Shown: positions 16,719-19,217 of the stretch, piece by piece
Layout of the letters: each line of letters begins with the position of its first letter
Numbering within the stretch: the first letter of the stretch is position 1
Assembly: GCA_030684575.1 (NCBI GenBank)
Contig: JAUXVD010000012.1
Span: forward strand, 1-64,000
DNA length: 64,000 nucleotides
Source of the DNA: Nitrospirota bacterium
GTDB lineage: Bacteria; Nitrospirota; Nitrospiria; Nitrospirales; Nitrospiraceae
Direction: 5' to 3'
Position numbers and translations under genes: made by a program
The notes under the pieces: model-generated
What the model was told of the DNA's origin: nothing
Database searches by the model: none
What the model saw: the letters and a program-made list of their open reading frames with translations, nothing else

Positions 16719-17225
16719 ATGAAGAAACAGGCACCTGTGCCCCCATCCTCCACCAAAATAATTCTGATCGTTGACGATGACCCGTCAATGCGCCTGATCT
16801 GCGTGAAAACCCTCCGAGCCGAGGGATTTACAGTCCTCGAAGCGGAGGGCAGCTCAGAATCATTAAAGATCTTAGCTACCCATACAGAGCCGATCGATTT
16901 ACTCGTGACCGATCTGATGCTTCCACCGCCAGGCCTTAAGTTTGCCTCCACCAAAAATCCCTATCCGCGGGTCCATGGTCACGAAATCATCCAACGAACC
17001 CTGGATATGAAAAAGACGCTCCGGGTGATCCTGATGTCGAGCTTGTCTGAACAAGATCGCAAGGCCTATCACCTCTCCACTGACCACGTCCCTTTTCTCC
17101 AAAAACCATTTTCCGTTGAAACCCTCCTGCAACTGGTCCATGAGGTGCTCGCCGCAGCACCACTTTCAATCGACGAATCCGCCGGCGCGTCGATTGCCAA
17201 GCAAGACGTTCGATGGTATGGCTGA
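16719..17225 (+). CDS. single-domain response regulator (CheY-like) with an insertion
   Basis: A 168-residue receiver protein. Acidic pocket D20/D21 (LIVDDDPS), phospho-acceptor D65 (LLVTDLMLPPPG), Ser in ILMSSLSEQD and Lys129 (LQKPF) are all present. Between the acceptor and alpha-3 there is an unusual insertion of about 20 residues (GLKFASTKNPYPRVHGHEI), absent from ordinary CheY-type domains. No output domain is present; the last 25 residues are a tail. GGAGG stands 7 bases before the ATG. No kinase gene is adjacent, so its partner is unknown. Confidence 0.88.
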   Translation: MKKQAPVPPSSTKIILIVDDDPSMRLICVKTLRAEGFTVLEAEGSSESLKILATHTEPIDLLVTDLMLPPPGLKFASTKNPYPRVHGHEIIQRTLDMKKTLRVILMSSLSEQDRKAYHLSTDHVPFLQKPFSVETLLQLVHEVLAAAPLSIDESAGASIAKQDVRWYG

Positions 17226-17362: not shown

Positions 17363-17439
<77 letters not shown>

Positions 17440-17583: not shown

Positions 17584-18798
17584 ATGCCACGCGCCAAAAC
17601 ATCGGACCAATCACGCGCTCGATCGAAAACTGCCACGGTTGAAGAGCTCACCCGTGGCGTTGGAAAGCTCCAGGAATTTCTCTCACAGGTGGAAGACCTC
17701 GGACGAGAAGGCTTTCCCTATATGGACGCAGCCAGGGCAAGAACAGAGTTACAATTCCGTGAATGTGTTCGCCGCACCTTCGGCGAGAAGTCCACGGAGT
17801 TTCAGGAACACCGCCAGCACAAACTTCTCATGGACAGTCCTGAGGAGACCCAACGGAGCATTGCCCTGATCAAGACGCTAATTGCCAAGATTGAGCAAAA
17901 GAAACATGAGCTACAGGGAGGAGGGCCTCCACAGATGACGCTCGTGCCGGCATCGATTCCAACGGTCCAGATGGCCATGCTGCACACGGCACCAGTTGCG
18001 TCACCGCCACTGATCATGTCTGTCGCCATGACGACCCCTCTCGATCCATCATCAGCCACCGCAGCACCGGATGTGCCCCCGCCGCTGACGGATCCTCTGG
18101 CACAGACTCAGACAGCGACATCGTCTGCGCCACCTCACCCGGTGATTCTCCCTGCCCCGGCAGCCCTTCATCCGTCAACATCGACTCCGCAGACCGCTCC
18201 GCCACGACATGCCACCGAGACTGTCGTTCCTCCAATGCTCTCGGCCAGACCAGCGCAGGAGGCGCAACAGCCTTCTCCCTCAATGCCGGCTACCCCTGCC
18301 CGCACCCAAGCGACAATGCCTCAATCTCTTCTGGCTGAGTCGGATCCGCTCGACCTCGTCAAGGGACTCTGCAGTCGATTCCATGCTGTGGCTCGGCAAT
18401 TGCGGCTCCGTGGGGAGCACCGCGCAACGTTAAGTGTGGAGGACGAGTTCGACGCACAAGATCTGCTGCACGCAATCTTGCGGACCCATTTCGACGATAT
18501 CGGCACGGATGAATGGGCCCCGAGTTATGCCGCGGGATCCCCGCGCACGACATTCTTGTTGAACAACGGCCGGCTGGCTGTGCTTGTCAAAAAAACACGC
18601 CCAGGCCTCAGCGCGAAAGACCTCACAGCCCAACTCAAGATTGATGCAGACCGGTATCGATCCCACGAGCGCTGCGCGACGCTTCTCTGTTTTATGTACG
18701 ACCCCGAAGGCCGCATCGGGAATCCGCGAGGCCTTGAAGCGGATCTCACCAGTGTCAGTGATTCATTTATCATCGACGTACTCGTCGCCCCGAAATGA
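17584..18798 (+). CDS. DpnII/MboI-family nuclease-like protein with degraded active site
   Basis: A 404-residue, three-part protein. Residues 15-120 are a helical domain (VEELTRGVGKLQEFLSQVED; TELQFRECVRRTFGEKS). Residues 120-250 are a long Pro/Ala/Thr/Ser-rich linker. Residues 255-404 match the PD-(D/E)XK domain I remember as the DpnII/MboI-like C-terminal family: CSRFHAVARQLRLRGEHR, DEFDAQDLLHAILRTHFDDI, DEWAPSYAAGSPR, VKKTRPGL, CFMYDPEGRIGNPRGLE. In active members the core reads roughly RMDFLL...EVKKTR. Here the same positions are R321-T-T323-F-L-L and L334-V-K336-K, so the Asp and the Glu of the D...ExK triad are replaced by Thr and Leu. Cleavage is therefore unlikely; DNA binding may remain. 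Confidence 0.82.
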   Translation: MPRAKTSDQSRARSKTATVEELTRGVGKLQEFLSQVEDLGREGFPYMDAARARTELQFRECVRRTFGEKSTEFQEHRQHKLLMDSPEETQRSIALIKTLIAKIEQKKHELQGGGPPQMTLVPASIPTVQMAMLHTAPVASPPLIMSVAMTTPLDPSSATAAPDVPPPLTDPLAQTQTATSSAPPHPVILPAPAALHPSTSTPQTAPPRHATETVVPPMLSARPAQEAQQPSPSMPATPARTQATMPQSLLAESDPLDLVKGLCSRFHAVARQLRLRGEHRATLSVEDEFDAQDLLHAILRTHFDDIGTDEWAPSYAAGSPRTTFLLNNGRLAVLVKKTRPGLSAKDLTAQLKIDADRYRSHERCATLLCFMYDPEGRIGNPRGLEADLTSVSDSFIIDVLVAPK

Positions 18799-18962
18799 GG
18801 ATAGCAATGAAGAGGTCGAAGTCTGCCGACGTCACACTCAGCAAATCGACAGGACGCGCTCCAGGATTGACAGAGACGACGGGCATCCGCTACGTTGGCA
18901 ACGAACCCGCTATTCCTGCGGTACCCTGTACGATTCATGCTCCAGTCGATGGCGGGATCATT

Positions 18963-19217
18963 ATGTCGGATCGGGCCTATGTGCTCATCAATGTCATGCC
19001 GGGACAGACCAGCGAAGTGGTGCGGGCATTATCCGCCATCAAGCAGATCAAGACCATCGACCCCTGCTGGGGCAAGCCGGATATTATTGTGGTGGTGGAA
19101 GTGACCGACCAGGATGCCTTGACCCAGCTAGTCCTGAAGCGAATTCATGAGATCGACGGCGTCTCGCAAACCGACACCCATCTCGTCTATCGATTGAAAG
19201 ACAGCAAGGCCAAGTGA
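18963..19217 (+). CDS. stand-alone Lrp/AsnC-type ligand-binding (RAM) domain protein
   Basis: An 84-residue protein equal to one RAM domain, without the DNA-binding helix-turn-helix of full Lrp. It has AYVLINVMPGQTSEVVRAL, PCWGKPDIIVVVEVTDQDAL and IDGVSQTDTHLVYRL, the typical alpha-beta sandwich that oligomerises and binds amino acids or other small ligands. The ATG at 18963 fits the domain start; the longer frame upstream (from 18795) is not protein-like. The following lipoprotein gene overlaps its stop by 4 bases. A regulatory or sensing role is inferred from the family. Confidence 0.85.
   Translation: MSDRAYVLINVMPGQTSEVVRALSAIKQIKTIDPCWGKPDIIVVVEVTDQDALTQLVLKRIHEIDGVSQTDTHLVYRLKDSKAK

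Follow-up and report, generated by a model that had tools for sequence, protein, structure and literature searches.

The nuclease EcbAgaN of the long-B Argonaute BPAN systems (PADLOC Aga_Helical-REase) cuts DNA in the presence of Mn2+ with the help of residues D298 and E309/K311, and its D298A and E309A-K311A mutants have lost DNase activity (PMC10620215). In the archaeal COG1395/PAB2104 family, the second domain has been described as a PD-(D/E)XK domain that has lost its active site, and such active-site-less domains are presumed, without proof, to bind nucleic acids (PMC1189080). A third group comprises stand-alone proteins of the PADLOC candidate type PDC-S35, composed of a helical N-domain and a C-terminal PF18742 (DpnII-MboI) domain. 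Our literature search found no paper on PDC-S35 or on the Nitrospira gene described below.

This gene lies in a 64,000-nucleotide stretch of contig JAUXVD010000012.1 from a genome of the Nitrospiraceae (hereafter, the window). From its sequence alone, the product had been read as a DpnII/MboI-like protein in which both catalytic acids are replaced.

Layout of the gene and its catalytic columns

The gene and its parts are as follows.

17584..18798, + strand: whole pseudo-nuclease gene, 404 aa; helical N-domain, disordered linker (as predicted) and inactivated DpnII-MboI domain
17608..17919, + strand: N-terminal four-helix domain, residues 9-112 (from AlphaFold2 and dN/dS)
17920..18339, + strand: Pro/Ala/Thr/Ser/Gln-rich linker, residues 113-252 (from composition, pLDDT, dN/dS and lengths)
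17932..17970, + strand: short recurrent linker motif PQMTLVPxSxPTxQ, residues 117-129 (read off orthologue linkers)
18010..18042, + strand: second short recurrent linker motif xMSVAMTTxL, residues 143-153 (read off orthologue linkers)
18340..18795, + strand: DpnII-MboI domain (PD-(D/E)XK fold), catalytically disarmed, residues 253-404
18550..18552, + strand: T323 (codon ACA), catalytic Asp column, EcbAgaN D298
18583..18585, + strand: L334 (codon CTT), catalytic Glu column, EcbAgaN E309
18589..18591, + strand: K336, retained Lys of the catalytic motif, EcbAgaN K311

The reading frame and residue numbering given by the sequence-only reading were exact. Its family assignment was equally sound: PF18742 is the single Pfam match of the protein (residues 258-404, profile positions 2-150 of 150, E 4.7e-50), with 169.5 bits against a gathering cut-off of 27 bits. 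The PADLOC Aga_Helical-REase profile PDLC02411 matches residues 243-401 (E 2.2e-23), and the PDC-S35 profile, which matches 13 of 21 active relatives, did not match the window protein at E<=1. A full-length orthologue, 87% identical, is present in genome G009.

The phmmer alignment with EcbAgaN is gapless from query residue 274 (chain residue 249) through 336 and places T323 on D298, L334 on E309 and K336 on K311. By itself, this pairwise match is weak (E 0.74); a profile built from active relatives recovers EcbAgaN with E 1.8e-5 and identical D/E columns. The metal-binding Asp of the second core strand is thus absent, being replaced by T323, and the (D/E)xK motif of the third core strand reads L334-V-K336, with the acid lost and the Lys retained. 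Both catalytic acids are indeed replaced, and the window protein probably no longer cleaves DNA.

The AlphaFold2 model of the window protein contains four N-terminal helices (residues 9-39, 47-66, 71-76 and 86-110, pLDDT about 80-92) and a C-domain with an REase-like fold; the model of an active relative has the same helix order. The linker between them, which had been recognized from the sequence together with the helical N-domain, consists of 68% P/A/T/S/Q, has a pLDDT mostly below 55 and is probably disordered. Its length ranges from 44 to 309 residues across orthologues. Both linker motifs recur in many orthologues of the Nitrospira clade and are missing from deep branches; they persist inside an otherwise fast-evolving linker and could possibly be partner-binding motifs.

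Similarity of the N-domain to that of active stand-alone relatives is weak but recurrent. The hhalign comparison gave E 0.0012 with a probability of only 19%, and the N-domain of a deep orthologue (L121) weakly matches positions 5-99 of the PDC-S35 profile (E 0.0015). In genome G049, a protein (L190:7080-7895, - strand) combines a helical N-domain of similar kind with a Hypoth_Ymh (PF09509) domain and matches PADLOC profiles Aga_HEPN, PD-Lambda-3_B and PDC-S35 (E 0.0005 for the last), and for this reason the N-domain seems to be a module common to conflict-type proteins. VIA-align matches of the N-domain were generic helical bundles, and a Foldseek search of the PDB with the full-length model gave no match with E<=0.001. 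In three active relatives (L089, L093 and L163), a Cys-rich, zinc-ribbon-like N-domain replaces the helical one.

Distribution and genomic neighbourhood

PF18742 was found in 146 of 175 Nitrospiraceae genomes, including 101 of the 114 good ones. Two genomes, G052 (L033 and L080) and G102, have two PF18742 matches each; both G052 copies are disarmed and diverged, one lacking both acids and the other keeping D. The gene occupies a fixed chromosomal location, with two recurrent neighbours in the window.

17363..17439, + strand: tRNA-Arg(CCT), upstream of the pseudo-nuclease gene
18966..19217, + strand: gene for a stand-alone Lrp/AsnC ligand-binding (RAM) domain (PF01037, 48 bits), the most constant neighbour

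The order that recurs in different genera of the Nitrospiraceae is tRNA-Arg(CCT), pseudo-nuclease, Lrp/AsnC domain gene, small lipoprotein, NtrC/histidine kinase and malQ, the tRNA-Arg gene being missing or further off in some neighbourhoods. Just upstream of the tRNA-Arg gene, a short response-regulator receiver domain is encoded at 16719-17225 (+ strand); its Pfam match comes in two parts, and there seems to be an insertion after DLMLP. No methyltransferase was seen among the neighbouring genes typed, and no homologue was matched in the phage collection.

The Lrp-type gene adjoins the pseudo-nuclease gene on the same strand in nearly every complete neighbourhood examined, in many genera. In the window, the ATG of its frame overlaps the pseudo-nuclease stop codon (ATGA), the frame running over 18795-18966 before its conserved part begins at 18966. 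This adjacency speaks for a regulator that acts as operon partner of the Lrp-type ligand-binding protein. However, several reduced genomes (e.g., G001, G015 and G020) lack the pseudo-nuclease and show a clean junction between tRNA-Arg and the Lrp-type gene. It thus follows that the pseudo-nuclease is dispensable and, since the Lrp-type gene stays where the pseudo-nuclease is lost, that any partnership is one-way at best. We consider an operon-partner role unlikely, at about one chance in several.

The sequence-only reading had also suggested inhibition of an active relative, and this finds no counterpart in the same cell: the source genome holds one PF18742 copy, the intact paralogue that was looked for there was not found, and no Piwi protein or long-B Argonaute partner was matched at E<=1. 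In a wider form, the protein would pair with active relatives, whether encoded by the host itself or by incoming plasmids, and block them as an inhibitor or decoy, thereby making the host immune to these nucleases. EcbAgaN is a dimer (PMC10620215), active relatives are found on conjugative plasmids, and Ca. Nitrospira defluvii carries both the disarmed and the intact form, all of which would suit such a role. Against it stand the missing active paralogue of the source genome, the rarity of intact copies in the Nitrospiraceae, where they were seen in three genomes (G059, G125 and G166, the last being a separate Ago-type nuclease), and an identity to active relatives of only ~50%, which is poor for hetero-dimers across phyla. 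We therefore regard inhibition as distinctly unlikely. The plasmid-borne relatives L165 (NZ_CP058745.1), H5, H14, H15 and H20 are annotated as "malate dehydrogenase", almost certainly a propagated misannotation; D and E are intact in L165.

Repeated acid loss and selection on the domain

We collected 147 distinct domain sequences, 112 of which belong to a long-linker clade that is monophyletic (support 100/99) when the two catalytic columns are left out of the tree. Both acids are present in every one of the other 35 sequences, which come from many phyla and plasmids and include one Ago-associated nuclease and two stand-alone copies associated with Nitrospira. In the clade, 100 sequences lack both acids, 10 have D only, 2 have E only and none has both, so that acid loss, as had been asked of the orthologues, is common to them. 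By column, D at 323 occurs in 35/35 intact relatives vs. 10/112 clade members and E at 334 in 35/35 vs. 2/112, while K or R stands at 336 in 108/112 clade members. One apparent long clade member with both acids, L226 of the Nitrospiraceae genome G166, proved to be a true Ago-associated nuclease (Aga_Helical-REase, E 6.8e-105) and thus lies outside the clade; its catalytic residues are intact, and the adjoining ORF looks Piwi-like by eye.

When regain is barred (Dollo parsimony), D was lost 3 times and E 4 times on the tree, with 4-7 losses of E in most bootstrap trees. Two sister sequences, joined with support of 100/93 and 91/90 in two trees, have lost opposite acids: L025 keeps D and has Q in place of E, whereas L121 has Y in place of D and keeps E. 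It follows that their ancestor had both. Unordered parsimony allows fewer losses of E (3 changes, one early loss and two regains); this course is less likely, since E would have had no evident use after the loss of D. By this reconstruction, the catalytic acids were lost several times independently.

Median dN/dS (Nei-Gojobori, 119 pairs over 16 orthologues) was 0.124 for the nuclease domain and 0.099 for the N-domain; the value for the linker was 0.52. Mean column entropy of the nuclease domain was 1.32 bits in the clade vs. 1.30 bits in the active set, a rough comparison, as the active set spans many phyla and the clade spans less divergence. These sequence comparisons indicate that the fold and the noncatalytic residues are maintained by purifying selection.

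The earlier statement that the remainder of the domain shows no decay held only in part. Active relatives have 37 near-invariant columns; of these, the clade keeps 17 (>=85%), and 12 are down to <=50%: Y289, H296, D305, R307, E309, A316, G317, D323, F324, E334, L351 and H361. The F-H-x-V-A-R-Q-L-R-L-R helix, D287/D290/D293, T338 and YDP at 372-374 are kept, and many of the relaxed columns are close in sequence to the catalytic residues. Aligned sequences thus place the relaxation in the catalytic neighbourhood, as judged by sequence and secondary structure rather than by distances, and much of the remaining domain outside it. Because of this relaxation, it is unlikely that the protein is just a nuclease that has kept its grip on DNA in the old cleft; reuse of that cleft is mildly disfavoured, and a DNA-reading role is unproven because residues round the cleft are relaxed too.

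PD-(D/E)XK enzymes can relocate their acids. The protein might then still be a nuclease with a metal site rearranged from other acids, e.g., D287/D290/D293 together with K336; D287 and D290 are invariant in the clade, D293 is present in 111/112 sequences, and position 336 keeps its basic residue almost throughout. However, the three Asp residues, which lie in the first helix, are about equally conserved in active relatives that keep D and E, and hence they are not substitutes. E288, which does not vary among active relatives, can be D, N, Q, I or V in the clade, and Y289, H296 and R307 are relaxed. The window protein has no acid near 323 or 334. Over all 112 clade sequences, column 334 and the 4 columns on either side of it contain only 3 acids, 2 of which are at 334, and near column 323 the sole frequent acid is at the +4 position (36/112), the window protein not being among these. 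A shift of the acids to neighbouring positions, which would have overturned the sequence-only reading, is thereby ruled out, and a rearranged site of any other kind is very unlikely. Least probable is that a captured defence nuclease is decaying here as a pseudogene: lost acids and absence from reduced genomes would fit it, but dN/dS is 0.12 over the 119 pairs, not near 1, frames are open in nearly all orthologues listed, and the gene is kept across the family.

Proposed domestication and comparison with known systems

Selection for a non-cutting function, as originally suggested, is well supported: such a function is likely because the acids are lost, the loss is common to orthologues, and the domain is kept by selection. 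The pseudo-nuclease has probably been turned to a task that does not involve cutting DNA. The starting point would have been a stand-alone anti-phage-type nuclease with a helical N-domain and a DpnII-MboI domain (PDC-S35 / Helical-REase type), taken up into the chromosome beside tRNA-Arg and the Lrp-type gene, on or close to the basal branch of the Nitrospiraceae. It would then have acquired the disordered Pro-rich linker and been passed on vertically, and the catalytic acids would have been lost repeatedly while the fold and noncatalytic residues stayed under purifying selection. The end state may be a non-catalytic binding or scaffold protein, whose N-domain and dead nuclease domain, spaced by the linker, would each bind a partner, either nucleic acid or protein. 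Taken as a whole, the explanation we favour with reasonable confidence is a captured defence-type nuclease that was retained in a non-cutting role, as a binding or scaffold protein. As to the partner, the dead domain could plausibly bind DNA or RNA by analogy with the active-site-less domains mentioned above (PMC1189080), though we put nucleic-acid binding at somewhat below an even chance, and protein-protein scaffolding is a little more doubtful still.

Defence nucleases usually turn over fast. For the specific course in which an anti-phage suicide-type nuclease became a near-universal, vertically inherited non-cutting protein with its acids knocked out several times, the odds appear evenly balanced. 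If it is correct, a dead enzyme has gained a new cellular role that no PF18742 member is known to have: it would bind the chromosome, RNA or protein as a scaffold, with a long disordered tether. A syntenic, disarmed nuclease present throughout a family makes a clean natural example of domestication in which catalysis was lost repeatedly under purifying selection, and it suggests that a conserved uncharacterized Nitrospira gene serves some purpose other than cleaving DNA. Matches of PF18742 or Aga_Helical-REase profiles in Nitrospira should not be counted as active defence systems.

Compared with known systems, the window protein shares with PDC-S35-type proteins, such as the second copy in Ca. 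Nitrospira defluvii (L032/L082), the helical N-domain and C-terminal PF18742 domain, with ~50% identity in the nuclease domain. Unlike it, these proteins have D, E and K intact, lack the Pro-rich linker, are mostly 240-310 aa long and are scattered over phyla and plasmids, whereas the family of the window protein sits at one chromosomal place. The best nuclease structural match of the C-domain is the type II restriction enzyme BstYI, whose fold is related, with ~10% identity, Z 7.6 (values below 8 being only suggestive) and an rmsd of 4.3 over 121 residues; the same enzyme matches an active relative with Z 7.8. With EcbAgaN the window protein has the C-terminal nuclease domain in common, but its own copy has neither acid, and a search of the source genome turned up no Piwi protein. 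The COG1395/PAB2104 family belongs to the same superfamily, but there the degenerate domain is a second domain inside a nuclease, whereas the window gene is family-wide and syntenic, carries the dead domain only and has lost its acids repeatedly and independently.
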